Assembly (NCBI RefSeq): GCF_014842975.1
Contig: NZ_JACYXK010000028.1
Span: forward strand, 372,001-436,000
Length of the DNA stretch: 64,000 nt
From: Rhodanobacter sp. DHB23
GTDB lineage: Bacteria; Pseudomonadota; Gammaproteobacteria; Xanthomonadales; Rhodanobacteraceae
Direction of reading: 5' to 3'
Below the pieces are notes generated by a model, which made no database searches, was not told the origin of the DNA, and worked only from the letters and a program-made list of their open reading frames with translations. Positions 2,580 to 23,343 of this stretch are shown piece by piece. How positions within the stretch are numbered: position 1 is the first letter of the stretch; each line of letters starts with the position of its first letter. A program made the translations under genes and the position numbers.

Positions 2580-2807
2580 TCAATGACCGCCACGGGGCAG
2601 CTCCGTGGCTTGCGGCTTGTCGTGCTCTGGCATCACCGCCAGCAGTGCTTGCTTGTTGACCTTGAGGTGGTCGACCAACTCAGGCGGGATCGCGCCCTTG
2701 CCTCGCTCGGTTTCGATGTGAAGGGTGTCGCCCGTGCGGGTGAGCACGCAGCCAGAGGCCCACACCAGCAGCAAGGTTTCGATAGGGTTGAAGGTGCGCG
2801 TGGTCAT
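2580..2807 (-). CDS. TubC-like N-terminal docking domain peptide
   Basis: 75 residues. The core (GCVLTRTGDTLHIETERGKGAIPPELVDHLK, then NKQALLAVMP; given here only to show the pattern in two pieces) matches the short TubC N-terminal domain, with a strand-strand-helix-helix pattern ending in K..LL. Such stand-alone peptides often accompany primase-helicase genes of integrated elements; their role is unknown. The ATG overlaps the stop of the DUF3631 gene (ATGA), indicating translational coupling to replication genes rather than to the tail genes that follow. Confidence 0.55.
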   Translation of the reverse strand: MTTRTFNPIETLLLVWASGCVLTRTGDTLHIETERGKGAIPPELVDHLKVNKQALLAVMPEHDKPQATELPRGGH

Positions 2808-4444
2808 ATGTCGATCCTCTCGCGCTCTACTTTTGTGCCTTCTTCCTTTTTCCCTAAGGAGGGGTGCACATCCGCTACACCGCTACATTGGCTTAGTGGC
2901 GCGGTTTGCGAGGTATTGAGCCCCGCTACACCATCCGCTACGGTTTTCGCCGATCCGCTACACGCTACGGATTGGGATGTAGCGGGTAGCGGCTGAGCTT
3001 CGGTGTAGCGGATCGCGCTTTTTGATCCGTTCACGCTCAAACCCGCGCCGTTGTGCGGTTGTAGCGGTGTAGCGGATACAGGGGGGTGTTCTACGGAAAG
3101 GGAAAGGTAGCGATCAAAGGCGTCCCGGAAGTCGGCCAGGTCGTAGCCCTTCCGGATGCCATCACTCGTGCGCATGTTCGCCGGCTTTATCCGGAAGTCG
3201 ACCAGGCGGGCGGCGAGGTGGCGCTGGGTCATCGGTCGACCTTTGGCCCAAGTCGCCCAGGGGGCCTCTTCATCACTGGTCAGCTCTTCCAGCAAGAGCG
3301 CGCTGGTGAGGCGGGATGATCCACGCCGCTCGAACACATCCCTGATATCCCGCAGCAGCTCCACGCCGATGCTCTGGCTTTCCTCCTCAGCACCATGAAG
3401 CGCTAGCGCAGCGTTCCGGGCTGCCTTGGCCCATGCCTCGCCTGCGAGGTCGGCGATCGCCAGCAACGGCTCCCAGCAGTCCTGTGCGCGGTCATTGAGC
3501 CCGCTGGCCGGGGTTGGGCGGGCAATCGCCACATCATCCCGGTTGTCTTCCGCCCATCGGGCCATGCGCTGGCGCAAGGCGTCCCACTGGTCGCTTTCCG
3601 CGTGCCGAATCTTCGCCACTGACTCACCGGCCACCTTGCGACGCAGGCGCAATGGAATGGAGCGATCCTCGATCGTGTCGGCCAGCTTGCCGATGCCACA
3701 CACCACCTTGGCGCCCCAGGTTCGGAACTGGGTGGGCACATGGTCATCACCCTCAACCCGGATGACGAAGGCAGTCTTGCGGTACAGGCCGGAGTTGATG
3801 AGGCCGCGGGCTTCGTCGTTCTCCTTGAGGAAGGTGTCGGCCTCGTCGATCAGGAGTGTGGGTTGCCACATCTCCATGCTGCGGAACAGGGCCGCAGGGG
3901 AAATGTTCGCCACCGGCAGCGCGCGGCACACCAATTCGGACATGACCGTCAGCAGCACCGTCTTGCCGCAGCGCTTCTCCGGGGCGGTGATATGGGCCAG
4001 CGGAGACACCGTGAGGGCATCCATGCACCAGGTATGCATGCACCACAGCGCTGCAGCGAGAATGGTGGGCTTGTCGGCGGCCACATGCTCCTTGATCGCC
4101 CGGCAGAGGTCTCGGACGAGCTCGCCACCGTCCACCGGCTTCGCCCAGGGCTCGACATGCGGGAACATGGACGACTGGTCACTATCCACCTTGCCGGCAG
4201 CCGTAAGGCGGTCCAATTCACCCACGCTGGCGCTCCTCTTGGCCTGCGCCCGGATGCGCTGGTAGCCCGCAGGATCGGCCAGGCGCACCGCCTTGATAGC
4301 TTCCAACACGTTGGCCTCAAACAAGGCTCCCGGATCTTCGCCAAGGCGACCAAGGGCATGCTGCACCAACTCCGGGATAGACGATGCCACCGCCTCCCGC
4401 TTGGCCACGTCGTCGATGCTGGCGCTGTAGGTGTCAGCGGGCAT
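2804..4444 (-). CDS. DUF3631 replication ATPase (primase-helicase-like)
   Basis: 546 residues from the ATG at 4444, which overlaps the end of the upstream zinc-ribbon gene by 11 bp; an in-frame start at 4558 would overlap it by 125 bp and is rejected. Walker A is EKRCGKT at residues 156-162 and Walker B is TLLIDEADTF near 196-205. The conserved RSIPLRLRRK segment near residue 270 is typical of DUF3631 proteins, which replace or assist helicases in plasmids and satellites. The C-terminal 90 residues are low-complexity, and their DNA carries the iteron-like array at 2872-3075. With the zinc-ribbon protein it would form a split P4-alpha-like replication unit. Confidence 0.8.
   Translation of the reverse strand: MPADTYSASIDDVAKREAVASSIPELVQHALGRLGEDPGALFEANVLEAIKAVRLADPAGYQRIRAQAKRSASVGELDRLTAAGKVDSDQSSMFPHVEPWAKPVDGGELVRDLCRAIKEHVAADKPTILAAALWCMHTWCMDALTVSPLAHITAPEKRCGKTVLLTVMSELVCRALPVANISPAALFRSMEMWQPTLLIDEADTFLKENDEARGLINSGLYRKTAFVIRVEGDDHVPTQFRTWGAKVVCGIGKLADTIEDRSIPLRLRRKVAGESVAKIRHAESDQWDALRQRMARWAEDNRDDVAIARPTPASGLNDRAQDCWEPLLAIADLAGEAWAKAARNAALALHGAEEESQSIGVELLRDIRDVFERRGSSRLTSALLLEELTSDEEAPWATWAKGRPMTQRHLAARLVDFRIKPANMRTSDGIRKGYDLADFRDAFDRYLSLSVEHPPVSATPLQPHNGAGLSVNGSKSAIRYTEAQPLPATSQSVACSGSAKTVADGVAGLNTSQTAPLSQCSGVADVHPSLGKKEEGTKVERERIDI
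2872..3075. repeat. Iteron-like array of CCGCTAC / GTAGCGG (element 1)
   Basis: Ten exact copies of one 7-mer lie in 204 bp. Five are in the CCGCTAC direction (2872, 2880, 2923, 2935, 2955) plus one variant, ACGCTAC at 2962. Five are inverted, GTAGCGG (2979, 2986, 3005, 3061, 3069). The left half is all one orientation and the right half all the other. The array lies inside the 3' part of the DUF3631 gene, about codons 457-524, where the protein is low-complexity. A replication-origin or partition role is inferred. Confidence 0.7.
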
Positions 4445-4967
4445 GCAGCACCTCCTTGGCATCGAAGATATTGAGGGCCGAGATGCGAAGCCGATGCAGT
4501 TCTTCATCGTCCAGGGCGAAGCCGTCGCCCATCCTGCTGGCGGCGATCTGCAGCACATTGGCTTCGTGGATGAGCACGTCCAGTGCAGCGCGCCACTTCG
4601 GAAGCAAGGCCGCTTGCAGGAACTGGCTGCGTTCGACAGGCGTCATAGTCTTGAAGTCACGCCGGACGAAGAGATCACCCACTTCCAGCCCGACCGCGGC
4701 GAGCACGTCGTGAACTTCGCACCCTGCGAAGCAGTGGAGCAGCAGCGTGCCGTTGTCACCCTGGGCAATGCTCAACGAGGCGGATTTGCTTCCGTGTGCG
4801 GGGCAGCGTGCGCGCCAGCCGTTGCCGGTCTTGATGACACCCTCCAAGCGTCCCAGCAGCAGAGATACCGGGTCGAGGTTGGTGGTAAAGTGCTTGCCGG
4901 AAGTGTTGTGATTTGCGCTCTGACGCCCGGTGCCAGCCGGGCGTTGGCGTTTCTGGGGCCAACTCAT
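4434..4967 (-). CDS. Zinc-ribbon primase-like protein
   Basis: 177 residues with a zinc-binding primase motif at residues 58-80: CPAH, then about 20 residues on, HCFAGC. This resembles the CHC2/Toprim N-terminal zinc domain of DNA primases, but no Toprim or polymerase domain follows. The C-terminal half (ALLPKWRAALDVLIHEANVL, then ASRMGDGFALDD) is nearly identical in pattern to the protein at 14984-15454 in element 2. Its ATG overlaps the AlpA stop by one base (TAATG) and its end overlaps the DUF3631 start. It probably recognises the origin or primes replication together with the neighbouring ATPase. Confidence 0.75.
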   Translation of the reverse strand: MSWPQKRQRPAGTGRQSANHNTSGKHFTTNLDPVSLLLGRLEGVIKTGNGWRARCPAHGSKSASLSIAQGDNGTLLLHCFAGCEVHDVLAAVGLEVGDLFVRRDFKTMTPVERSQFLQAALLPKWRAALDVLIHEANVLQIAASRMGDGFALDDEELHRLRISALNIFDAKEVLHAR

Positions 4968-5892: not shown

Positions 5893-5981
5893 GCGCACAC
5901 CTCTGCGCCCTTCATAGGGTGCCGCGCCAGCCGGGGAAGGTGCCCGGTGTTCGGGGATCAGCCTAGGCGCGGTGTGAACTG

Positions 5982-6167: not shown

Positions 6168-6517
6168 GCGTGGATCTCCTTTTTATCCTCTACAGCCTTA
6201 TCGTGCAGTGCGCGAATTTTGGGGTTTTGCAGCTCACGCGCTAGCGCCGCCATCGTGTCCATGACGCTCGCATATTCGGCCAGGTGAGCCACAACCCACC
6301 CCAACCGCGACATGTGCGCCTCCTCCACTTGCTCGGCACCGATGGTATTGCCGATAGCGGCAATCTGATGCAGCGCATTCTCGACGTGGCTGGAAGCAAG
6401 CGAATCAACCTCTTCCAGTTCCACGGTGGTTCTGGCAAGTAGCGCCGCCTCAATCCAATCCACACCGAGTGCGATGGAGAACAGTCGATCCACTTCGTTG
6501 CCGGTCTGGATGCTCAT
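6164..6517 (-). CDS. Hypothetical protein, element 1 early operon
   Basis: 117 residues, mostly alpha-helical, not recognised. Visible pattern: ALGVDWIEAALLARTTVELEEV, ALHQIAAIGNTI, HLAEYASVMDTMAALARELQ. Both ends overlap neighbouring genes by 4 bp (ATGA). A counterpart of similar size and helical content (107 residues, with LTFLAELAIDLHNIEADAQ) sits in the same operon position in element 2, but similarity is weak. Confidence 0.65.
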   Translation of the reverse strand: MSIQTGNEVDRLFSIALGVDWIEAALLARTTVELEEVDSLASSHVENALHQIAAIGNTIGAEQVEEAHMSRLGWVVAHLAEYASVMDTMAALARELQNPKIRALHDKAVEDKKEIHA

Positions 6518-6879
6518 GCGCGAGCCCTCCCGGATTGCCAGCAGCCATGCATGTCGTCTCGAACCTCTTCCAATCGTTCTTCAGCGCGATCACCAAGTTC
6601 AAGTAGCGCCAACTGCAAGGCGGTTACCTCACCATTATTCAGACCCTTGTAGATGACGCGATTGTCGTCGCGTGCGTCTGCTTTTCCGCGTGCGTCCGCC
6701 ACCAGCATCCTGGCGATTGCATTTGCGGCGTAGACCGAGCGATCAATTATCGCCAACCGGTTACGGACGCTCATGGGCAGCTCTTTATCGAGAGCCTTCC
6801 ATCCTTCGTCATAGCACCATCCGGTAAATGCTTCGATCGTCTCGCTTTCGAGCGCAGCGTTCTTCGGCTTCATGGTCAT
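6514..6879 (-). CDS. Hypothetical protein, first gene of element 1 early operon
   Basis: 121 residues; the ATG follows the conserved GCAGAGGTGGAG leader end, which supplies the ribosome site. Not recognised. It has an acidic N-terminus (ALESETIEAFTGWCYDEGWKAL) and helices VRNRLAIIDRSVYAANAIARML and VTALQLALLELGDRAEERLEEV. It overlaps the next gene by 4 bp. It would be the first product released when the leader terminator is read through, so it is a candidate early regulator. Confidence 0.65.
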   Translation of the reverse strand: MTMKPKNAALESETIEAFTGWCYDEGWKALDKELPMSVRNRLAIIDRSVYAANAIARMLVADARGKADARDDNRVIYKGLNNGEVTALQLALLELGDRAEERLEEVRDDMHGCWQSGRARA

Positions 6880-7033
6880 GCTCCACCTCTGCAGTTGATG
6901 CTGAAGGAGCCACCAGGCCGTTGCGGCAGGGTGGCAGGCGTGCAGGGTTGGCGAACCGGCTCACAAGGTCACCGGCCAGCCCGAAGGCTGCCCTGCACGC
7001 CCACCATAGAAGCGGACATGACGCAGCAGGCAC
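6809..7033 (-). CDS. Possible Ash/Icd-like leader peptide, element 1
   Basis: A 74-codon frame crossing the leader and entering the first early gene out of frame. Its middle (FANPARLPPCRNGLVAPSA, then STAEVE) matches the frame at 12862-13047 in element 2 (TPARPPPRRNGPVAPSA, STAEVE). Leaders of P4-like elements often carry a short 'ash' frame of this kind. A one-base indel near 6976 places the upstream part in a different frame from element 2, so either the start differs or the match merely reflects RNA conservation. Confidence 0.35.
   Translation of the reverse strand: MPAASCPLLWWACRAAFGLAGDLVSRFANPARLPPCRNGLVAPSASTAEVEHDHEAEERCARKRDDRSIYRMVL
6948..6954 (-). promoter_or_regulatory. Predicted immunity-RNA target site, element 1 (seqC-like)
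   Basis: On the minus strand the site reads TCGCCAA, the exact complement of the hairpin loop TTGGCGA at 7078-7084, with flanking GG/CC that can extend the pairing after one mismatch. The distance is 130 nt, as in element 2, where both partners have changed together. By analogy with P4 this would be a target of the CI-type RNA. Confidence 0.65.
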
Positions 7034-7063
7034 AAAAAAAGCGCCATTCGGCGCTGCTGCGCC
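7034..7063 (-). terminator. Leader terminator with overlapping antiterminator stem, element 1
   Basis: On the minus strand GGCGC-AGCA-GCGCC-GAAT-GGCGC-TTTTTTT. The central GCGCC can pair with the upstream GGCGC (antiterminator) or with the downstream GGCGC, which is followed by seven T (Rho-independent terminator). The same arrangement with different loops occurs at 12805-12833. It would attenuate transcription of the early operon. Confidence 0.75.
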
Positions 7064-7109
7064 TTGTGAAGATCAGGTCGCCAAACCTGGCCCCCGAATT
7101 GGCGGGGAC
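7064..7109 (-). ncRNA. CI-like immunity RNA region, element 1
   Basis: Minus-strand leader just after the promoter. Stem-loop 1 is CCCCG-CCAATT-CGGGG (7092-7107). Stem-loop 2 is CAGGT-TTGGCG-ACCTG (7074-7089). Stem 2 is conserved with element 2 while the loop differs, and the loop complements a site 130 nt downstream. This is the layout of the P4 CI RNA, which pairs with its own leader to force early termination. RNA ends are not visible from sequence. Confidence 0.65.
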
Positions 7110-7115
7110 GGTGGC

Positions 7116-7144
7116 AATATGCGCCTAATGCAATGGGACTGCAA
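7116..7144 (-). promoter_or_regulatory. Early promoter of element 1
   Basis: Minus strand: -35 TTGCAG at 7144-7139, a 17-bp spacer, and -10 CATATT at 7121-7116. The identical -10 and a near-identical -35 (TTGCAC) with the same 17-bp spacer occur in element 2 at 12724-12752, while the spacers differ. Transcription would start near 7109, at the foot of the first stem-loop. Confidence 0.7.
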
Positions 7145-7200
7145 GGGATGGATAAATGAAGGTTTGGTGGCTGGCGATCGCCTGCACTCTGAACAGCAGA

Positions 7201-8301
7201 TCAGTGAGAAGAAGGTGTTACTCGCGCCAAACGCCTGACGGCTCCGACAAAATCTCCACCCACTCCAGGCTGCGACAGCTGGATGACCTCGTTGATGCCA
7301 GATGCGCTTTGAATGCTCATCTCGGTGTACCGACAAATGGGTATTTGCCTGTTGTTGTTGAAACGACGATCAGGACCACCGTTCTTGTTGACGAAGCGCC
7401 AAGTGTGCCCAACCACCCGCGTGTCGCGTGGCACCCCTTCATCCTCGATGAAGTTCTTTTCGTCTACGTCTATGTTCAAATGACTGTACTCCACGCCTCC
7501 CACACCTTCAGGCGCATAGACCAGTACACGGTCGGGGAAGAAGTGCAGCACTTGACGCCCGACGTCTATAGCCACTGTCTCGATATTGCATTTGAGATGC
7601 TGTGGCGCCGCACGCCGGATGGAAGTCACCTTGCGCCTGATAAGGCTTGCGGCGCCGGCGTGATATTTGCGATCTAGTACGCGCCCGCTAGCCTCGATGT
7701 GCCACACGCGGGCACAGCCTGCTAACTGAAGTGCCGCAGAGTGTAGTTGCTCATATGCAGCCTCTACATCCGGATCGAACTCGTAGAAAAGCACCACCGT
7801 TTTCGCAAGTTGATCTAGGACGCCAACATATATAGCGCCCATCAGACCCGCGAGTGCGATCAACGAATTCACCCACTGCGGCGCATCCATGTGGACCGAC
7901 CACGCCAACAACATAAGGGTGCCGATGAGAACCATGGGCCACATCAGGGGCCGCTTGCGCTTCTGATTGATTTCATCCAACAACGCCTTGGATGACGAAT
8001 CAACTATGTGATTCGCATCGAGGGATTCGATCTCCTTCAGCGGTTCGTGTGTGGCACTGGTCGGCGCGTGTTGGGTCGACGGCATGTACGAATGCTGTTG
8101 CCGCGGTGCGCGGGTGCCATTGCCTGCCGGCGGCAGGGTGGCCCGGTAGTAGAAACCACCGCGCCCCATATGGATGTAGTTACCGCGCGGCCCCGTGCCG
8201 ACACGAAACCCTTTGATGCCTGCGGAAACCCCGACCCCGGAGCCGGAAAGGTTGAAACGCAACGGCCCGACGCTAATGCTTTTACGTAGGTAGAACCCCA
8301 C
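7201..8301 (-). CDS. DUF4236 membrane protein, cargo of element 1
   Basis: 366 residues from a GTG with a GGGGG ribosome site. The N-terminus (MGFYLRKSISVGPLRFNLSG, then GVGVSAGIKGFRVGTGPRG) is the DUF4236 domain, a glycine-rich beta repeat of unknown function. Two adjacent hydrophobic stretches follow near residues 115-155 (MVLIGTLMLLAWSV and LIALAGLMGAIYVGVL), then a soluble C-terminal part of about 210 residues. It sits between the integrase and the leader, the slot where element 2 has two different membrane proteins, so it is probably accessory cargo. A defence role is possible but unproven. Confidence 0.75.
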   Translation of the reverse strand: MGFYLRKSISVGPLRFNLSGSGVGVSAGIKGFRVGTGPRGNYIHMGRGGFYYRATLPPAGNGTRAPRQQHSYMPSTQHAPTSATHEPLKEIESLDANHIVDSSSKALLDEINQKRKRPLMWPMVLIGTLMLLAWSVHMDAPQWVNSLIALAGLMGAIYVGVLDQLAKTVVLFYEFDPDVEAAYEQLHSAALQLAGCARVWHIEASGRVLDRKYHAGAASLIRRKVTSIRRAAPQHLKCNIETVAIDVGRQVLHFFPDRVLVYAPEGVGGVEYSHLNIDVDEKNFIEDEGVPRDTRVVGHTWRFVNKNGGPDRRFNNNRQIPICRYTEMSIQSASGINEVIQLSQPGVGGDFVGAVRRLARVTPSSH

Positions 8302-8350
8302 GGTGCCCCCTGTGGTACGTGGTGTTCGTCAGCCGCCATCGCGACTGCAC

Positions 8351-8373
8351 GGCCAGCCTCCCCTAGGCTGGCC
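8351..8373. terminator. Stem-loop between integrase 1 and cargo gene
   Basis: A perfect 9-bp inverted repeat, GGCCAGCCT-CCCCT-AGGCTGGCC, lies 51 bp past the integrase stop and 50 bp before the cargo start. There is no clear T-tract, so it is at best a weak terminator for the integrase transcript. Confidence 0.4.
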
Positions 8374-8423
8374 TGCAGATTCTGCTACGCGAGATGTCGT
8401 ACATCCAAGCACATCCAACCGGA

Positions 8424-9644
8424 TCACCCAGCCTTGCGCTTGAACGGCACCACAGCACCACCAGCGCGTAGTGCGTCCAGGTAGTCGGCCCAGCCCTGCA
8501 TCATCCGCTTGCGCTCGTCCAGGTACTGCGCGGCATGCGTGTACGCCTCGCGCACCTTGTTGCTTTCGGCGTGGGCTAGCTGGCGCTCGATGGCATCGGC
8601 GTTCCACCCCATCTCGTTCAAGCGACTGGCGGCCATGCTGCGGAAGCCGTGGCCGGTCATCTCGTCCTTGCCGTAGCCCAGCCGACGCAGTGCAGCGTTG
8701 ACAGTGTTTTCGCTCATGGGGCGGCTGGCGGTGCGGATGCCGGGGAACACGTAGCGCCCGGAACCTGTGAGCAAGTGCAGCTCGCGCAGCACGGCCACAG
8801 CCTGCGATGACAGCGGCACGATATGGGGAGCCTTCATCTTCATGCGCTCGCCGGGGATGCGCCAGATCGCGCCGTCCAGGTCGAACTCTGACCACTCCGC
8901 GTGCCGCAGCTCGCCCGGGCGCACGAACACCAGTGGTGCCAGCTTCAACGCCGCAAGCGTGACGGGCTGGCCGGTGAAGCCCTCGATGGCACGCAGCAGC
9001 TCCCCGACCTTCATCGGATCGGTGATCGCGGCGTGGTGTTTGACCTTGGGCGGCTTCAACGCACCGCGCAGGCTGGCGGTGGGGTCGGCCTCGGCATTGC
9101 CTTCCAGAATCGCCCAGCGGAACACCTGCCCCGCCTTGACCTTGGCGCGAGTGGCCGTGTCCAGCTTGCCCGCATCTTCGATCTTGCGCAGCGCATCCAG
9201 CAGAACGCGCGGTGTGATGGCGCCGATCGGTAATGCACCGATCTCGGGGAACAGGAAGGTTTCCAAGATCCACTGGTTCTTCAGCTTCGTGATCTCGGCA
9301 ACGTCCTGCCGCGCCATCCAGTCACGCGCTACCTTCTCGAACGTGTCCGCTGCGATTTCCGCGGCCTTGATCCGCTCCACCTTCTCGGCTTTCCGCTGCT
9401 CGCTCGGATCGACGCCAGCGGCGAGCAGCTTGCGCGCGTCGTCGCGCCGCATGCGTGCGTCGACCAGGCCGGTGTCGGGATAGGTGCCCAGGGCAAGCCG
9501 TTTCTCCTTGCCCCCGAATCGGTACTTGAGCCGCCACCACTTGCCCCCGGCCGGAACGATTTCCAGATACAGGCCGCCGCCATCGAACAGGCGGCGCGGC
9601 TTGTCGGTGGGCTTGGCTTTGCGGATGGCGGTGTCGGTCAGCAT
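8424..9644 (-). CDS. int: P4-type tyrosine integrase, element 1
   Basis: 406 residues from the ATG at 9644 (MLTDTAIRKAKP, the usual P4-integrase start). The N-terminal DUF4102 arm-binding domain covers about residues 1-90 (LFDGGGLYLEIVPAGGKWWR). Catalytic residues are visible: Arg in FVRPGELR near 242, Lys near 268, HGFR at 332-335, His in LAHA near 358 and the nucleophile Tyr near 368 (EAYTHAAQYLDER). It is transcribed away from tRNA-Leu, whose 3' end lies 174 bp upstream and is the presumed attachment site. The second end of the element is outside the window. Confidence 0.93.
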   Translation of the reverse strand: MLTDTAIRKAKPTDKPRRLFDGGGLYLEIVPAGGKWWRLKYRFGGKEKRLALGTYPDTGLVDARMRRDDARKLLAAGVDPSEQRKAEKVERIKAAEIAADTFEKVARDWMARQDVAEITKLKNQWILETFLFPEIGALPIGAITPRVLLDALRKIEDAGKLDTATRAKVKAGQVFRWAILEGNAEADPTASLRGALKPPKVKHHAAITDPMKVGELLRAIEGFTGQPVTLAALKLAPLVFVRPGELRHAEWSEFDLDGAIWRIPGERMKMKAPHIVPLSSQAVAVLRELHLLTGSGRYVFPGIRTASRPMSENTVNAALRRLGYGKDEMTGHGFRSMAASRLNEMGWNADAIERQLAHAESNKVREAYTHAAQYLDERKRMMQGWADYLDALRAGGAVVPFKRKAG

Positions 9645-9730
9645 GGGGGCATTTCCACCCTTTGCGGCCAGCAGGGCCGCGGAATGCCCCCGATACTGCC
9701 CCCGCGTGGGGGCAGATTGCAATGGATGCC

Positions 9731-9748
9731 ATCGGACAGCATCGGACA
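9731..9748. repeat. ATCGGACA direct repeats near attachment site of element 1
   Basis: ATCGGACA occurs at 9731-9738 and 9741-9748, one helical turn apart, with a related ATCGGACG at 9804-9811 next to the tRNA-Leu 3' end. Helically phased repeats between an integrase gene and its tRNA target are typical arm-type integrase or excisionase sites. Confidence 0.45.
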
Positions 9749-9754
9749 AAGAAA

Positions 9755-9798
9755 AAGGCCGGAAGCCTTATTTCTAGGGACTTTCCGGCCTTCGTTGG
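9755..9798 (-). terminator. Terminator after tRNA-Leu
   Basis: On the minus strand AAGGCCGGAA and TTCCGGCCTT form a 10-bp stem followed by TTTC. It ends the tRNA-Leu transcript before the integrase gene, so the tRNA transcript would not drive int. Confidence 0.65.
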
Positions 9799-9817
9799 AC
9801 TCTATCGGACGGCTTGA

Positions 9818-9904
9818 TGGTGCCCGGAGCGGGGATCGAACCCGCATAGCCTTGCGGCTGAGGGATTTTAAGTCCCTTGCGTCTACCAGTTTCGCCATCC
9901 GGGC
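9818..9904 (-). tRNA. leuZ: tRNA-Leu (UAA)
   Basis: 87 nt including encoded CCA. The acceptor stem GCCCGGA pairs with TCCGGGC, the anticodon loop is CTTAAAA with anticodon TAA, there is a long variable arm, and the T-arm is GGGTTCGATCCC. It corresponds to leuZ of the glyW-cysT-leuZ cluster. Its 3' end is the presumed target of element 1; element 2 separates it from tRNA-Cys. Confidence 0.95.
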
Positions 9905-9914
9905 GGCGTGCCGT

Positions 9915-9945
9915 GTGCCTGCGTGCAGGCGGCGCGGATCGTAGC
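9915..9945 (-). promoter_or_regulatory. Possible private promoter of tRNA-Leu
   Basis: On the minus strand a TACGAT -10-like hexamer lies about 35 nt upstream of the tRNA, followed by a GC-rich discriminator (CCGCGCCGCC) of the kind seen in stringently controlled tRNA promoters. The best -35 at 17-bp spacing is poor (CCGGTT). Such a promoter would explain how the tRNA is still expressed although its operon is interrupted. Confidence 0.35.
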
Positions 9946-9997
9946 ATGTGCCCACGGCGCAACCGGCGCGCATGCCCACGATCGATCCGCGGAAACG

Positions 9998-10020
9998 AAA
10001 AACCCGCCGGGCGGCGGGCT
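9998..10020 (-). terminator. Ancestral terminator of the tRNA-Cys operon
   Basis: On the minus strand CCCGCC-GCCC-GGCGGG is followed by TTTTT. It lies between the left attachment site of element 2 and tRNA-Leu, so before insertion it would have followed tRNA-Cys directly. It also ends any minus-strand transcript leaving element 2. Confidence 0.65.
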
Positions 10021-10032
10021 TCGATACGCTGG

Positions 10033-10051
10033 TTTGGAGGCCTAGGTCGGA
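10033..10051. repeat. attL of element 2
   Basis: TTTGGAGGCCTAGGTCGGA, a 19-bp exact copy of the sequence at 23325-23343. It corresponds to the 3' end of tRNA-Cys including CCA. Bases on both sides of the two copies differ, so the repeat is exactly bounded. The enclosed element is about 13.3 kb. Confidence 0.92.
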
Positions 10052-10059
10052 CACTAAGC

Positions 10060-10078
10060 GGATACTTTAGGATACTTT
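10060..10078. repeat. GGATACTTT direct repeats near attL
   Basis: GGATACTTT occurs at 10060 and 10070, one helical turn apart, with a weaker AATACTT at 10081. Their position just inside attL suggests excisionase or integrase binding sites. Confidence 0.4.
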
Positions 10079-10170
10079 CTAATACTTAGAATCCAGCCTT
10101 CAAACGGCTATGTGATGCGGTTTTCAGGTATCAGAAGGTATCCAATGGCATCCTTGCGTATCCGACCAAG

Positions 10171-10191
10171 TGTGCGTAGATTGTGCGTAGA
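10171..10191. repeat. Integrase arm-type sites, left end of element 2
   Basis: TGTGCGTAGA at 10171 and again at 10182, 11 bp apart. The right end carries TGTGCGTAGA at 23251 and a variant, CTGCGCGTAG, at 23262, with the same 11-bp spacing and orientation. Matching pairs inside both ends are what is expected of integrase arm-binding sites. Confidence 0.6.
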
Positions 10192-10210
10192 ATCCAGTTA
10201 GGGAGCGCAC

Positions 10211-11431
10211 ATGCTCAGCCAGCTCGAAATCAAGAACAAGCTGGTGCCGAAGGGCAAGCCGTACCTGAAAGCTGACGGCGGCGGTCTGGCGCTGCTGGTG
10301 CAGCCGAACGGCGCGAAGCTCTGGCGCCTGCGCTACCGCTTCGCCGGCAAGGCCCAGATGCTCAGCCTGGGGAGCTGGCCCGAGGTGTCGCTCGCCACGG
10401 CACGCGCCGAACGCGACCGGGCAAGAGCGTCGCTGCGCGCCGGCATCAACCCGTCGACGGTGCGCAAGGAGACCAAGGCCCGCGCCATCGTCGCCGCGGC
10501 GAACACCTTTCGCGCGCTGGCCGCCGAGTGGATCGAACAGCACCGCGAGGTGTGGGGTGCGCCGCACCTGCAACGCATCCAGGCTCAGCTCGACCGCGAC
10601 ATCCTGCCGTCGCTCGGCGACCGTCCCATCACGGAGATCACGCCAGCCGAGGTGCTGGCGATGGTGAAGCGCGTCGAGGCCCGCGGATCGCTCAGCATGG
10701 CGAAGCGCTGTCTGGATCGCACCACCGATGTCTTCGCCTTGGGCGTGCGCACGCTGCGCTGCCCGAGTAACCCGGCCCGCGACCTCGTGGGCGTGCTCAA
10801 GACGCGCAAGGTCGCGCACCGCGCTGCCCTACCCTTCGACCAGCTGGCCGCCTTCTACGAGCGCCTGGAAGCGCTCAGCGCCGGCCCAGAGCTGAAGGGC
10901 GCCATGGAGATGGCCATTCTCACCGCGACGCGCTCCGGCGAAGTCCGCGGCATGCGCTGGGACGAGCTCGACCTCAACGCCGAGGCGCCGCTGTGGCGCA
11001 TCCCTGCCGAACGCATGAAGATGGCCAATGAGCATCTGGTGCCGCTCAGCCGGCAGGCGGTGGCGATCCTGAAGCGTATGCACAAGCTCTCAGGCGATGG
11101 CGCGCTGGTGTTCCCGAGTCCGTCCAAGCCGAAGGAGCCGCTGACCGCCAACGCGCTCCTGATGGCCCTGTGGCGCATGGGCTACGCCAAGGGCGAGATC
11201 ACCATGCACGGCTTCCGGGCGACCTTCAGCACGACGCTCAACGAGCTGGGCCACAACCCGGACGTCATCGAGCGCGCGTTAGCGCACCTGCCGGCGGACA
11301 AGGTACGGGCGGCCTACCACCGGGCGCAGTACCTGGACGAGCGGCGGAAGCTGCTGCAGGCCTGGGCGGACATGATCGACGGGAAGCGCGCTGGAGGCGG
11401 CGTGGTGCCGTTCAAGCGCAAGGCGTCTTAG
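10211..11431 (+). CDS. int: P4-type tyrosine integrase, element 2
   Basis: 406 residues, the same length as integrase 1 but clearly diverged. DUF4102 arm-binding domain at about residues 1-90 (LKADGGGLALLVQPNGAKLWR). Catalytic residues: Arg in ATRSGEVRGMRW, HGFR near residue 333, His in LAHL and Tyr in AAYHRAQYLDERRK. It starts 160 bp inside attL. It would recombine the 19-bp core at tRNA-Cys, unlike integrase 1, which uses tRNA-Leu. Confidence 0.93.
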   Translation: MLSQLEIKNKLVPKGKPYLKADGGGLALLVQPNGAKLWRLRYRFAGKAQMLSLGSWPEVSLATARAERDRARASLRAGINPSTVRKETKARAIVAAANTFRALAAEWIEQHREVWGAPHLQRIQAQLDRDILPSLGDRPITEITPAEVLAMVKRVEARGSLSMAKRCLDRTTDVFALGVRTLRCPSNPARDLVGVLKTRKVAHRAALPFDQLAAFYERLEALSAGPELKGAMEMAILTATRSGEVRGMRWDELDLNAEAPLWRIPAERMKMANEHLVPLSRQAVAILKRMHKLSGDGALVFPSPSKPKEPLTANALLMALWRMGYAKGEITMHGFRATFSTTLNELGHNPDVIERALAHLPADKVRAAYHRAQYLDERRKLLQAWADMIDGKRAGGGVVPFKRKAS

Positions 11432-12052
11432 TTAAAGACGGGATGAATAATCATTGATAAAGCTATTCAGTAGTTCGAGCATCTTTTTCAATCTTTTTGA
11501 TGATTCACCATATTTTGGAATGAGATCAGGCAAGGTAGCGGCAGACATCGTGGCAAGCGATACAACAATGTCGTTTTTCATTGCAGGAAAAGAAGCCAGC
11601 GCCCATGAATGGCGCGAAGGCAGCCAAGCGACTTTCTCAAGGTTTTTCTCTATCAATTCAAAATTCATTTTTTGAACGAGTTGCATGCTGTTGAATGCTG
11701 CTACGTTGCAAGCTTGTTGATTCCGCACATCTAGCCCGTTGATTGCAGCAATAGCTTTTTCAGCTAAACCTTTGGATGTGTTGCAGTCCGAAAAAAGGAA
11801 CGAAGCAATAACCAGGCCTCTCGCATCAATTTCCTCGTGACGAGCGGCGCTGTCTTTGCGCGCCAAGAAAAGAGCGGCGACAACTGCTCCCATGGTGCCA
11901 ATTGCCGTGAGCCAAGTCGCTAAGTCTCCGTACTCAAGTCGTTCGTTCCAGCCGGAGTGCGGCGGATAAAAGACGAAAGCCACGAGGAGAGCTCCAGCAA
12001 TAATTCCTACAGCGCACCATTGCGCGGCAATCTTGTGAGTTACAGGCATCAT
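11432..12052 (-). CDS. Two-TM hypothetical membrane protein, cargo of element 2
   Basis: 206 residues with two N-terminal membrane helices, about 10-30 (WCAVGIIAGALLVAFVFYPP) and 44-62 (LATWLTAIGTMGAVVAALFL), then a cytoplasmic helical domain. The W-L-x-A-x-G-T-x-G-A-V motif is common in uncharacterised small membrane proteins of mobile elements. Its stop abuts the integrase stop (convergent). The DNA is clearly more AT-rich than its surroundings (for example 11454-11680), a sign of separate acquisition. Function unknown; membrane-anchored defence cargo is one possibility. Confidence 0.7.
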   Translation of the reverse strand: MMPVTHKIAAQWCAVGIIAGALLVAFVFYPPHSGWNERLEYGDLATWLTAIGTMGAVVAALFLARKDSAARHEEIDARGLVIASFLFSDCNTSKGLAEKAIAAINGLDVRNQQACNVAAFNSMQLVQKMNFELIEKNLEKVAWLPSRHSWALASFPAMKNDIVVSLATMSAATLPDLIPKYGESSKRLKKMLELLNSFINDYSSRL

Positions 12053-12100
12053 TCAATAGTCATCCATCTCGGCAAAATAAAGTGAAAGTCTCGTCGAAGA

Positions 12101-12712
12101 TCAGCTTCTAGCCCTTGGCTTTTCCCCTTCGCGACTGAATGACGGAAGATCGCATGCCGTTTCGATCACTCTGCCGAGGTTCTTGACGCGTTGCATGTTA
12201 TTCGTGATCTCAATGACCATTTGCTCACGATTGTATTCCGGCGTGCCATACTGCCCTCGGAGCAAGTCAAGATGAATGTCGTAGCTGGTGAGTGCATCAA
12301 TAAATGCTACGCGAACCGCTGCATCGAGATATAAGCAGTTCTCCACGTAGAAATCTCGAAACTTGTCCTTTAATTCTGCGCGCGCAGTTCCTTCATCCAT
12401 GTGGATGTGATCGAGCATTTCGAGCCAAAGCAAATATGCCTTTTGGTGGGTTTCCAGGCGTCGCTCACCAGCGAGGAGGCGAAGAGACGTCTGCGCGCGA
12501 AGGGCCTCCGTTACCTGCGCTAGCTTGACCTCATTGTCATGCTTGATCGATTCCACGATCGTAGTGATCTTTCCAATGTCCTCCTTCGTCGCGAGTCCCT
12601 TTCCCTTCTCGGATAGGTAGGATCCTGCATAGCGAGGCAGGCCGAACAAAAGCACAGCGCCAATCACCGCGCCTGCGGAACCAGCTATACCGAACATCTC
12701 CAAGATCTGCAT
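12101..12712 (-). CDS. Hypothetical membrane-anchored protein, cargo of element 2
   Basis: 203 residues from the ATG at 12712; a start at 12811 would run through the promoter/leader of the element and is rejected. One N-terminal membrane helix (GSAGAVIGAVLLFGL) is followed by YLSEKGKGLATKEDIGKITT, a signature often seen in uncharacterised membrane proteins of mobile elements, then a helical domain (HQKAYLLWLEMLDHIHMDE). It is transcribed divergently from the early promoter, which begins 12 bp from its start codon. With the neighbour at 11432 it forms the cargo block. Confidence 0.7.
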   Translation of the reverse strand: MQILEMFGIAGSAGAVIGAVLLFGLPRYAGSYLSEKGKGLATKEDIGKITTIVESIKHDNEVKLAQVTEALRAQTSLRLLAGERRLETHQKAYLLWLEMLDHIHMDEGTARAELKDKFRDFYVENCLYLDAAVRVAFIDALTSYDIHLDLLRGQYGTPEYNREQMVIEITNNMQRVKNLGRVIETACDLPSFSREGEKPRARS

Positions 12713-12723
12713 GCAGCTCCCCC

Positions 12724-12752
12724 TTGCACTTCCTCCGTAGTCGGCGCATATT
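12724..12752 (+). promoter_or_regulatory. Early promoter of element 2
   Basis: -35 TTGCAC at 12724-12729, a 17-bp spacer, -10 CATATT at 12747-12752. It matches element 1 in both hexamers and spacing although the spacer sequence differs. The expected start is near 12759, followed at once by the first stem-loop of the leader. Confidence 0.7.
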
Positions 12753-12758
12753 GCCACC

Positions 12759-12804
12759 GTCCCCGCCAATTCGGGGGCCAGGTGTAGGAACCTGATATTC
12801 GAAA
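12759..12804 (+). ncRNA. CI-like immunity RNA region, element 2
   Basis: Stem-loop 1 is CCCCG-CCAATT-CGGGG (12761-12776), identical to element 1. Stem-loop 2 is CAGGT-GTAGGA-ACCTG (12779-12794), with the same stem but a different loop. The loop core GTAGGAA (12784-12790) is the exact complement of TTCCTAC at 12914-12920. The same relation holds in element 1 with a different sequence, so the pairing is supported by covariation. Predicted to act like the P4 CI RNA. Confidence 0.7.
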
Positions 12805-12833
12805 GGCGCAACGGCGCCGATGGCGCTTTTTTT
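12805..12833 (+). terminator. Leader terminator with overlapping antiterminator stem, element 2
   Basis: GGCGC-AACG-GCGCC-GAT-GGCGC-TTTTTTT. The central GCGCC can form either an antiterminator stem with the upstream GGCGC or the terminator stem with the downstream GGCGC, which is followed by seven T. Same design as 7034-7063. Confidence 0.75.
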
Positions 12834-12861
12834 GTGCCCGTTGCGTCATGCCCACGCTTTT

Positions 12862-13047
12862 ATGGTGGGCGTGCAGGGCAGCCTTGCGCTGGCCGGTTTC
12901 CTTTCGAGCCGGTTTCCTACCCCTGCACGCCCGCCACCTCGCCGCAACGGCCCGGTGGCTCCTTCAGCATCAACTGCAGAGGTGGAGTCATGGCAACTGA
13001 AAGCGCAATCCAACGCACCAACTACATGCTTCCTCTGGATCTGGTAG
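12862..13047 (+). CDS. Possible Ash-like leader peptide, element 2
   Basis: A 61-codon frame (an in-frame ATG at 12820 would give 75). MVGVQGSLALAGFLSSRF, TPARPPPRRNGPVAPSA and STAEVE resemble the short Ash/Icd-like proteins found in P4-like leaders. It overlaps the first early gene in another frame. The shared peptide with element 1 supports it, but the same bases are also constrained by the predicted RNA pairing. Confidence 0.45.
   Translation: MVGVQGSLALAGFLSSRFPTPARPPPRRNGPVAPSASTAEVESWQLKAQSNAPTTCFLWIW
12914..12920 (+). promoter_or_regulatory. Predicted immunity-RNA target site, element 2 (seqC-like)
   Basis: TTCCTAC, exactly complementary to the loop GTAGGAA at 12784-12790, 130 nt upstream. 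A partial second match (TTCCT) lies at 12898-12902. By analogy with P4, pairing here by the CI-type RNA would promote early termination. Confidence 0.65.
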
Positions 13048-13220
13048 ACGAAGCTGACAAGCTGGCTTACCAAGCCAACGCCGTTCTTGAATGTCTGGTG
13101 GATGCACGTGCCGTGCTGGACTCTCCGGAAGTCGTCTTGGATGGAATCGGATGGCTGTTGCGTGACCAAATTGCGCGACTGAAAGAGATCTGCAACACCG
13201 TTGTGGAGGCCCGCGCATGA
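12990..13220 (+). CDS. Small hypothetical protein, first gene of element 2 early operon
   Basis: 76 residues from the ATG at 12990, directly after GGTGGAG in the conserved leader end. Helical and acidic (LDLVDEADKLAYQANAVLEC, LLRDQIARLKEICNTVVE). Not recognised. It overlaps the next gene by 4 bp. A longer in-frame start at 12834 lies inside the terminator stem region and is not credible. Confidence 0.65.
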   Translation: MATESAIQRTNYMLPLDLVDEADKLAYQANAVLECLVDARAVLDSPEVVLDGIGWLLRDQIARLKEICNTVVEARA

Positions 13221-14987: not shown

Positions 14988-15454
14988 ACTCCTCTCCGCT
15001 GGAACGCATCCTGGCAGCGCACGAGCATGTCACTGGCTACCGGGAACGCCGCACGGGTCGCGGCTATCGCATCACCTGCGCCGTCTGCGCTACAGCCTCT
15101 TACAAGGGCGCTGTCACTGAGGCCGAAAACGGTAGCGTGCTGATGCACTTCTTCTGTGGCCATTCGTCGGCCGAGGTGCTGGACGCCCTGGGGCTTTCGC
15201 TGGCCGACCTTTTCCCCACCCGTGACCTGCGCACCCTAACGCCCCAGCAGCGCCGTGAACTGCGTGAGAGTGCTCTGTTGCCGAAGTGGCGCGCGGCGTT
15301 GGAGGTGCTCACCCATGAGGCCAACGTCCTGCTGATCGTCGCCAGCAAGATGGGCGACGGCTTCGTCCTGGACGACAACGAGCTGACCCGCATGCGCATT
15401 GGGGCCCTGAAGATCTTCGACGCGCAGCAGGTTCTGGCGGTGCGTCATGGCTGA
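14984..15454 (+). CDS. Zinc-ribbon primase-like protein, element 2
   Basis: 156 residues. CAVC near residue 27 and FFCGH near 53 form a four-ligand zinc motif like that of primase N-termini. The C-terminal half (ALLPKWRAALEVLTHEANVL, ASKMGDGFVLDDNEL) is closely similar to the element 1 protein at 4434-4967. It overlaps the downstream ATPase gene by 8 bp. Together with the ATPase it likely provides replication initiation or priming. Confidence 0.75.
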   Translation: MNSSPLERILAAHEHVTGYRERRTGRGYRITCAVCATASYKGAVTEAENGSVLMHFFCGHSSAEVLDALGLSLADLFPTRDLRTLTPQQRRELRESALLPKWRAALEVLTHEANVLLIVASKMGDGFVLDDNELTRMRIGALKIFDAQQVLAVRHG

Positions 15455-16541
15455 GACGCTGATCTCCAACATCGACGAGCTGGCCGACCGTGAAGCCGAG
15501 CGCACGGGGTGGTGCGCTGGTGCAAATAAAGCAAATGCACCAATGCACCACTTGGAGCACGAGCTGCAAGGCATCGTGCCTCCGGTAGTGCTGGACGCTG
15601 CAGCATTGCTTGGTCGCGAGTTCCAGCCGCGTGAGGAACTGCTGGCGCCCTGGCTGACTTCGCAGTCCCTGGCGATGGTGTACGCACGACGCGGTGTCGG
15701 TAAAACGCACTTCGCGCTGGGTGTGGCCTATGCCTTGGCATCCGGTGGCGAGTTCCTTGGCTGGAAAGCACCCGCTCCCGTACGTGTGCTCTACCTGGAC
15801 GGCGAGATGCCGGGTGCTGACCTGCAGGCACGCCTCTCGCACGTGATCGCCAACGCACCGCAGGCCGCGGCACCCGGCGCGCTTCGGATCATGACGCCCG
15901 ATGCCCAGCCGTACGGCTTGTTGCCGAACCTCTACACGCCCGAAGGCCAAGCAGCGATCAACGCGGTGATCGGCGACGCGCAAGTGATCGTGGTCGACAA
16001 CCTCTCCTGCCTCGTTCGTGGCGGCAAGGAGAACGAGGGCGAGAGCTGGCAGCCGGTCGCCGAATGGGGGCTGCGCCAGCGCTCTGCAGGCCGCTCGGTG
16101 ATCTTCATCCACCACGCCGGCAAGGGTGGCCAGCAACGCGGCACCAGCAAGCGCGAAGACCTGCTGGATACCGTCATCTCGCTTCGCCGCCCGGCCGACT
16201 ACACGCCCGACCAGGGCGCCAGGTTCGAAGTCCACTTCGAGAAGGCCCGCGCCCTGTACGGGCAGGACGTCGACCCGATCGACGCGCAGTTGGAATCGGC
16301 TCCCGACGGCGCGCAGGCCTGGACGATCAAGCGCGTCGCCGATGCCGCGGACGATCAGATCCTGGAGATGACCGATCTCGGCCTCAGTACGCGCGAGATC
16401 GGCACCGAGCTGGGCATCGCCCATTCCACCGTCGTGCGCACGCTCGCACGCCTCAAGGAGACCGGCCGCTACACCCCGAAGCCCAAGGCGCCACGCAAAC
16501 CTCGCGATCCCGCAGCGCACTGGAGCGACCGTGATGACTGA
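15447..16541 (+). CDS. RepA-like AAA/RecA-type ATPase with C-terminal HTH
   Basis: 364 residues. Walker A lies at about 80-88 (ARRGVGKTH), Walker B at 180-186 (IVVDNLS) and a conserved IHHAGKGG near 221-228, as in hexameric RepA/DnaB-like helicases. A C-terminal helix-turn-helix (LSTREIGTELGIAHSTVVRT, about 313-332) could bind the origin. It replaces the DUF3631 ATPase of element 1, so the replication modules are mosaic. Its 5' end contains four of the TGGTGCA-type repeats. Confidence 0.8.
   Translation: MAETLISNIDELADREAERTGWCAGANKANAPMHHLEHELQGIVPPVVLDAAALLGREFQPREELLAPWLTSQSLAMVYARRGVGKTHFALGVAYALASGGEFLGWKAPAPVRVLYLDGEMPGADLQARLSHVIANAPQAAAPGALRIMTPDAQPYGLLPNLYTPEGQAAINAVIGDAQVIVVDNLSCLVRGGKENEGESWQPVAEWGLRQRSAGRSVIFIHHAGKGGQQRGTSKREDLLDTVISLRRPADYTPDQGARFEVHFEKARALYGQDVDPIDAQLESAPDGAQAWTIKRVADAADDQILEMTDLGLSTREIGTELGIAHSTVVRTLARLKETGRYTPKPKAPRKPRDPAAHWSDRDD
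15510..15550. repeat. TGGTGCA repeats, cluster 1 (element 2)
   Basis: TGGTGCG at 15510 and TGGTGCA at 15518, then the inverted TGCACCA at 15536 and 15544. The two direct and two inverted copies form a dyad inside the 5' end of the ATPase gene. Confidence 0.6.
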
Positions 16542-19220: not shown

Positions 19221-19565
19221 ATGGAAAACTCTACGCACAAACCTACGCACGCCAGCGTCACGCTGCGCGGCAAAACGGTGCCCTTCAGGACTTGGAGCCT
19301 GACCGATGTGGCATGCGCCCGCGACGACTTCGTCGCCGTCTCGCGCTGCACGAATCTGTTCGCGCCGGCAGTGCTCCCTTCCGTCCTGCGCATCCTCGCC
19401 CTCTCGATCAAGGAGCACTTCCCGGACGTGCCGCTGCAAACCCTGGCCGATGAATTGACCGACGCGCTGCGCCCCACCGATCTGCTGGCGATCGTGCCGG
19501 TGGTGTTCGACGCGAAGGAGCCGCTCCCCTACGTGCACGAGGTGAATTCCCATGGCATCCACTGA
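19221..19565 (+). CDS. Tail assembly chaperone-like protein, element 2
   Basis: 114 residues from the ATG at 19221 (a GTG two codons earlier is possible). A beta-type opening (ASVTLRGKTVPFRTWSLTD) and a helical rest (VLRILALSIKEHFPDVPLQT, LADELTDALRPTDLLAIVPV) resemble the element 1 protein at 2250-2531 in layout. It overlaps the tape-measure start by 14 bp, the typical place of a tail chaperone. The assignment rests on position and shape. Confidence 0.55.
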   Translation: MENSTHKPTHASVTLRGKTVPFRTWSLTDVACARDDFVAVSRCTNLFAPAVLPSVLRILALSIKEHFPDVPLQTLADELTDALRPTDLLAIVPVVFDAKEPLPYVHEVNSHGIH

Positions 19566-23324: not shown

Positions 23325-23343
23325 TTTGGAGGCCTAGGTCGGA
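23325..23343. repeat. attR of element 2
   Basis: TTTGGAGGCCTAGGTCGGA, identical to 10033-10051, forming the 3' end of the intact tRNA-Cys gene. Confidence 0.92.

Follow-up and report, generated by a model that had tools for sequence, protein, structure and literature searches.

The 64,000-nt window analysed here (Rhodanobacter sp. DHB23, contig NZ_JACYXK010000028.1, positions 372,001 to 436,000 of the forward strand) contains two adjacent integrase-bearing islands of ~13-14 kb each, elements 1 and 2. Each carries a leader in which an attenuator of the isrK family is followed by an antisense RNA of the C4 family. This arrangement can be read directly from sequence and structure, while its transcription and processing we infer. 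We consider it very probable that each leader would act as a self-limiting immunity switch of the kind used by phage P4, and that the two islands would be heteroimmune and able to coexist. The prediction of heteroimmunity follows from two RNA contacts, a/a' and b/b', which differ between the elements and are fully compensated.

Two leaders with two antisense contacts

The two leader modules are 88% identical over 250 nt and start from a common promoter, TTGCA[G/C]-N17-CATATT, which a first-pass annotation of the window had pointed out and which direct reading confirms. A search against all 4227 Rfam families returned isrK and then C4 in both leaders, in every case above the gathering score (50 bits for isrK, 45 bits for C4). 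The P4 immunity region (X51522) also matches both families, likewise with isrK ahead of C4, at 74.9 bits for C4 and 60.8 bits for isrK, and the likeness to P4 immunity proposed earlier is thus borne out. The antisense RNA itself had been misplaced: the region 7064-7109 / 12759-12804 where it was sought is the target (P4 seqA), and the antisense corresponds to the downstream C4 domain of ~85 nt. An equivalent of the P4 CI RNA at the upstream hairpin is ruled out, since Rfam places C4 downstream. The features of the two leaders are as follows.

7116..7144, minus strand: promoter of the element 1 leader, TTGCAG (7144-7139)-N17-CATATT (7121-7116), by direct reading
7034..7109, minus strand: isrK-type attenuator of element 1, equivalent of P4 seqA (RF01394, 54.6 bits; folding)
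7078..7084, minus strand: target site a' of element 1, TTGGCGA, loop of hairpin 2 (sequence comparison)
7062..7069, minus strand: target site b' of element 1, TCACAAGG, overlapping the 5' strand of the antiterminator at 7059-7063 (folding and sequence comparison)
6927..7011, minus strand: C4 antisense RNA of element 1, equivalent of the P4 CI RNA (RF01695, 76.6 bits)
6961..6968, minus strand: antisense site b of element 1, CCTTGTGA, loop of C4 hairpin P3 (sequence comparison)
6948..6954, minus strand: antisense site a of element 1, TCGCCAA, single-stranded C4 junction (sequence comparison)
12724..12752, plus strand: promoter of the element 2 leader, TTGCAC (12724-12729)-N17-CATATT (12747-12752), by direct reading
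12759..12833, plus strand: isrK-type attenuator of element 2 (RF01394, 52.3 bits; folding)
12784..12790, plus strand: target site a' of element 2, GTAGGAA (sequence comparison)
12799..12806, plus strand: target site b' of element 2, TCGAAAGG (sequence comparison)
12858..12941, plus strand: C4 antisense RNA of element 2 (RF01695, 67.7 bits)
12900..12907, plus strand: antisense site b of element 2, CCTTTCGA (sequence comparison)
12914..12920, plus strand: antisense site a of element 2, TTCCTAC (sequence comparison)

The attenuator of element 1 comprises two hairpins, the b' site, the antiterminator/terminator and a T-run at 7034-7040. In both leaders the second hairpin has the same stem, CAGGT/ACCTG, with differing loops, and the exact complement of each loop lies 130 nt downstream. 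The constant stem, the loops and their complements, together with the change of four of the seven loop positions and the compensation of all four, had been noticed in the first pass and hold on inspection. The 7-nt covarying pair is real and represents the a/a' contact of C4, formed between the single-stranded C4 junction (a) and the loop of isrK hairpin 2 (a'). What did not stand is the idea of a single pairing per element, which overlooked a second, 8-nt pair, b/b', between the loop of C4 hairpin P3 (b) and the stretch just upstream of the terminator (b'). Here two of the eight positions differ between the elements and both are compensated, so that over the two contacts six of 15 base pairs have changed, with compensation in all six. 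Differences fall in 12 of the 30 columns of the four sites against 13 of the 152 columns of the remaining leader core (Fisher p = 6e-5), and the excess of change at the pairing sites is not due to chance.

A possible extra helix would span the T-run (7054-7061 with 7022-7029, CGCAGCAG/CTGCTGCG; 12807-12814 with 12838-12845, CGCAACGG/CCGTTGCG), and it would also be changed between the elements and compensated. The ~45 nt that separate C4 from the first ORF (open reading frame; 12943-12989; minus-strand 6880-6926) are nearly identical between the elements despite their unrelated ORFs; judged by eye, a GGCTCC in this stretch might pair with the GGTGGAG ribosome-site region, as a possible second control.

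Covariation and specificity among related leaders

C4 matches turned up in 72 of 398 genomes searched from the order, in 2 of 15 from the genus and in 24 of 369 from the class, with overlap between these samples. Part of the matches listed, 188 loci, was collected and 184, from 50 genomes, were kept for counts; L107 and L108 (under gathering, with another fold) and L106 and L117 (misparsed) were dropped. The first-pass annotation had named independent variation of loop and downstream site as the outcome that would speak against the pairing. What we see is a cognate upstream match of at least 6 nt for a in 183 of the 184 parsed loci, and for b in 158; non-cognate pairs give such a match in 12.4% (a) and 13.2% (b) of cases.

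In 15 leaders of the window type, chosen after the first pairing results and with their sites placed via flanking motifs only, both contacts are fully paired throughout (a 105/105 cells, b 120/120, wobble allowed), and none of 5000 permutations reaches either value. The covariation suggested in the first pass is also found on 27 related leaders, where 99.5% of the a/a' cells are paired, 51 cells are double-changed compared to 17.3 after shuffling, and the covariation score is 0.725 against 0.236, although the loci are related and such counts are not independent events. None of 500 shuffles reaches the observed pairing, double-changed count or score, and sliding the partner by 1-3 columns lets the pairing fall to 31-55%. 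In the same 27 leaders, the number of a/a' pairs changed on both sides (5 vs 4.8 shuffled) and that of further pair types (7 vs 9.3) show no separation. The b/b' helix is 83% paired on the automatic alignment of these leaders, which is gapped at that helix.

The contacts also appear to be specific. Predicted duplexes reach -20.0 and -17.5 kcal/mol for the cognate combinations but only -3.2 and -5.6 kcal/mol across the elements. Among C4s that have other copies in the same genome, the own leader is the best target for 136 of 137; this set was drawn from the 150 of the 184 loci in which cognate matches of at least 6 nt had already been found, and the result therefore shows the absence of cross-talk, not the pairing. 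At a scaffold identity of at least 0.90, the same a+b code is found in none of 38 same-genome pairs compared to 33 of 88 between-genome pairs (Fisher p = 1e-6). At 85-90% identity the figures are 1/160 between genomes and 0/100 within, and one same-genome pair has b alone in common. Only the identity-matched contrast is significant, since without matching for scaffold identical specificities occur in 0/625 pairs within and 34/16211 between genomes (Fisher p = 0.64). Many of the code-sharing between-genome pairs keep matching into the flanks and are probably orthologues, and the contrast thus in part compares orthologues with paralogues. The difference in code between copies of one genome fits an exclusion of copies with the same specificity, or a selection against cross-silencing.

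It could be argued that neither leader has a role in immunity, that they are inert remnants or a regulatory module that has been shuffled around, and that their specificity differences reflect drift along old duplications. The similarity of the two leaders stands beside integrases that are 42% identical and first ORFs between which BLASTP finds no similarity, and the module therefore moves between elements. Still, compensation of all six changed base pairs, the faster change of the paired sites than of the scaffold and the identity-matched contrast in shared codes make a relic very unlikely. If the immunity reading is right, immunity groups of RNA-controlled satellites could be read from ~15 nt, and the compatibility of co-resident elements would become predictable.

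The proposed switch and its alternatives

Folding agrees with the overlapping antiterminator and terminator described in the first pass: downstream of b' the sequence folds either as a competing hairpin or as a terminator before seven T. Both elements thus have a complementary upstream site next to a terminator, as in P4 (a/b pairs, T-run terminator, competing hairpin). We propose that a transcript from the shared promoter would read past the isrK attenuator and yield the C4 RNA, which would then bind the isrK region in the following transcript via a-a' and b-b'. Since b' overlaps the 5' strand of the antiterminator hairpin, C4 binding would free the terminator and, judging from folding and from P4, shut off the operon of the small ORF and the replication genes. 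An incoming element with the same a/b would be silenced, which amounts to immunity, whereas one with different a/b would not.

When b' is blocked in silico, the probability of the terminator rises from 0.72 to 0.999 in element 1 and from 0.05 to 1.0 in element 2. A looser terminator definition was applied to the 88 leaders that have both a T-run and cognate matches. In 46 of them the terminator rose by more than 0.1 when b' was blocked, and it fell in none; 87 ended above 0.9, a value that 42 had exceeded before any blocking. The mean over the 88 leaders is 0.73 free, 1.00 with b' blocked, 0.72 with a' blocked and 0.63 with a random 5' stretch blocked; part of the b' effect is built in because b' adjoins the competing strand.

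Alternatively, the main effect of C4 might be on how the downstream ORF is translated and not on termination, in line with what is described for the P1/P7 C4 and icd/ant. Directly after C4, 54 of the 184 loci do carry another target with both a and b, against a non-cognate rate of 0.8%, and in examples read by eye, L004 among them, b2' covers the Shine-Dalgarno sequence; P7 and P4 also have a second target. One of the two sites is found in 22 further loci, and neither a nor b in 106 others and in both window leaders (L001/L002), where the 75 nt searched after C4 contain no match of at least 6 nt. We therefore regard termination at isrK triggered by C4 as the likely mechanism in the window, where translational control appears most improbable.

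A further possibility is that isrK RNA rather than C4 is the actor, pairing in trans with the read-through transcript and activating translation of the first ORF, as proposed for IsrK of Gifsy-1. Both leaders match the isrK family, a dual-function IsrK model has been published (PMC4825925) and the same a/b pairing would serve in either direction. However, the fold of the C4 domain is strongly conserved, with high scores in both elements, and no further copy of the a/b sites is seen at the ribosome site of the first ORF. P4 moreover has the same order, and its termination factor is the CI RNA (PMC4825925). A role for isrK as the actor is thus unlikely, if somewhat less so than translational control by C4, and it is C4-induced termination that we favour from the folding models.

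Several observations weigh against this switch. The two leaders match c4-a1b1 (RF03163), the family that describes the target half of the pairing, just under its gathering score of 46.7 bits (44.3 bits, E 6e-10, in element 1; 39.4 bits, E 1e-8, in element 2). With the looser definition, blocking b' changes the terminator of the two window leaders only slightly (from 0.90 and 0.98, respectively, to 1.00), and the energy models disregard cotranscriptional folding and proteins. The missing second target after C4 belongs here as well. An extra copy of TTGGCGA, seen by eye, lies within the first ORF of element 1 (6756-6750, minus strand); the b' octamer of this element has its single minus-strand copy of the window in the leader and none near the extra TTGGCGA. 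Under the parser used, 26 of the 184 loci are without a b match of at least 6 nt; L005, L008, L020 and L030, which belong to the 15 fully paired leaders, give no such match in the free search, because of the wobble or mismatch limits of the parser. Cross-matches within genomes, with both a and b at least 6 nt in 33 of 1250 ordered pairs and at least 7 nt in three, are at about the level of chance. Finally, in Salmonella a co-expressed RNA downstream of IsrK led to a stronger and not a weaker growth arrest, according to PMC4825925.

Islands, dispersed cassettes and known systems

Both islands are compact, with an integrase at a tRNA as in satellites of the P4 family and with C4 at ~2 kb or less from the integrase. 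Replication-type genes lie further down on the same strand as the leader. Element 2 extends from a 19-nt repeat at 10033 to the copy at the tRNA-Cys end at 23325. For element 1, the tRNA-Leu end is repeated in part at window position -4012 (16/20, ungapped), and because this repeat is partial the left border is only tentatively placed ~4 kb left of the window.

2804..4558, minus strand: DUF3631 protein of element 1 (PF12307, 7.5e-53)
4434..4967, minus strand: primase zinc-ribbon-like protein of element 1 (phrog_6088, 5.1e-15; PF01807, 8.6e-4, 19.5 bits, under the curated cut-off of 24.9)
5908..5973, minus strand: int-alpA RNA of element 1 (RF02996, 53.5 bits)
6514..6879, minus strand: first ORF after C4 of element 1, 121 aa (amino acids), no family found, in the position of icd after P7 c4
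8424..9749, minus strand: tyrosine integrase of element 1, adjoining tRNA-Leu (9818-9904) (PF00589, 5.9e-25)
10033..10051, plus strand: left attachment repeat of element 2, 19 nt, same as 23325-23343
10211..11431, plus strand: tyrosine integrase of element 2 (PF00589, 9.9e-21)
12990..13220, plus strand: first ORF after C4 of element 2, 76 aa, no family found
15447..16541, plus strand: AAA_25 / DnaB-like helicase of element 2 (PF13481, 1.9e-28; PHROGs)
19552..22326, plus strand: tail tape-measure protein of element 2 (PF06791, 2.5e-28; phrog_24, 2e-49)
23325..23343, plus strand: right attachment repeat of element 2, at the tRNA-Cys 3' end

DUF3077 was considered as an identity for the small first ORFs and dropped, as Pfam did not report this family for any of ten proteins scanned. 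Among the part of the island ORFs that was scanned, no antirepressor family was found.

Within the order, at least 18 of the 398 genomes have five or more C4 matches. A deeper search gave 19 in G332, 17 in G129 (one under the curated cut-off), 10 in G299, 15 in G260 (nine under the cut-off) and 15 in G240 (two under it), and the a/b codes are distinct among the copies of each of these genomes. Copies of the same genome are usually homologous across the leader, over a stretch that starts at about -100 to -225 and ends between +80 and +620, with mostly unrelated flanks. Longer homology is seen in L040/L060, L096/L100, L043/L117 and some G129 copies. In G260 homology mostly ends at the end of C4 or by +225, with no common ORF apparent, and one copy is without a hit. 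A Phage_integrase match lies within 10 kb of two of the 64 copies in G332, G129, G260 and G240, compared to both copies in the genome of the window, and 14 of the 64 have no such match on the same contig. Of ten long ORFs near six copies, five gave no family and one an rve-type transposase; the remaining four are FG-GAP/SpvB-like, a multicopper oxidase, a weak AHH match and a TonB receptor, and neither a phage integrase nor a primase is among the ten. The small ORF has pairwise dN/dS values (ratios of nonsynonymous to synonymous substitution rates) of 0.05 to 0.8 in four sets (G299 with G026, G129, G240, and other genomes of the family). C4 matches may also be closely set, as in the pairs G332 C1:2049673/2049912, G026 C19:588505/591286 and G259 C72:24289/25164, and G664, a 1.5-Mb genome that does not belong to the order, has four tandem matches within 1.4 kb (contig C9, 1700-3092).

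We are evenly divided over a reading in which C4/isrK switches have left satellites and some Xanthomonadales carry 10-19 dispersed chromosomal cassettes per genome, mutually orthogonal and with private a/b codes. As part of it, and with the same balance, each cassette would combine a promoter with isrK and C4 and would include, in the families tested, a small ORF that evolves under purifying selection. The window pair would then be the mobile end of this spectrum. The dispersed cassettes might serve as a standing repertoire of RNA immunity to mobile elements under C4 control, or else form a multicopy toxin-antisense family. As a repertoire against known satellites, orphan cassettes found no support, with five cross-genome a+b matches of at least 7 nt between 66 orphan-type and 54 two-target loci, about as expected by chance. 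The titles and abstract openings searched, largely outside subscription journals, gave no description of many-copy orthogonal C4 cassettes. Genomes with many copies are a natural collection of antisense switches that appear to be orthogonal, and one may ask why a chromosome would keep up to 19.

C4 and c4-a1b1 motifs are covered in PMC2864571, and C4 and isrK are annotated in Xylella (PMC12189769). In the Pseudomonas phage Phipami28 record (L375, PV029746.1), int-alpA, isrK, c4-a1b1 and C4 stand beside ABC-transporter and dehydrogenase genes, and part of this record looks chromosomal because these genes adjoin. In Gifsy-1, isrK-STnc1160-orf45-anrP resembles the window in that isrK is followed by a processed RNA with complementary sequence, and the authors note the likeness to P4 seqA (PMC4825925). 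Unlike in the window, IsrK is there a proposed trans activator of translation, with the antirepressor-like anrP downstream and antQ, a Q-like antiterminator gene, upstream.

P1 and P7 share with the window the C4 fold, the a and b contacts and a small ORF ~50 nt after C4. P7, with C4 at 69.6 bits, differs in that it has targets both upstream and downstream and does not reach the gathering score of isrK; P1/P7 have ant, whereas no ant gene was recognised among the window ORFs scanned. A small number of matched base changes underlies the heteroimmunity between P1 and P7. This heteroimmunity operates through C4 (review PMC12197685) and is a closer precedent than P4 for two specificities. P4, with CI RNA and seqA/seqC, has upstream and downstream matches for both sites: for b TCACAGG upstream and TCACAGGA downstream (scripted), and for a GTGAGAA in both places (by eye, the scripted placement of site a being wrong there). 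It differs from the window leaders in that both sites are repeated after C4, where they lie at the ribosome site of the next gene. Judged by sequence, the window leaders would be a variant of P4-type RNA immunity without the ribosome-site target, and this variant, if we are right, isolates the termination step of the P4 mechanism.

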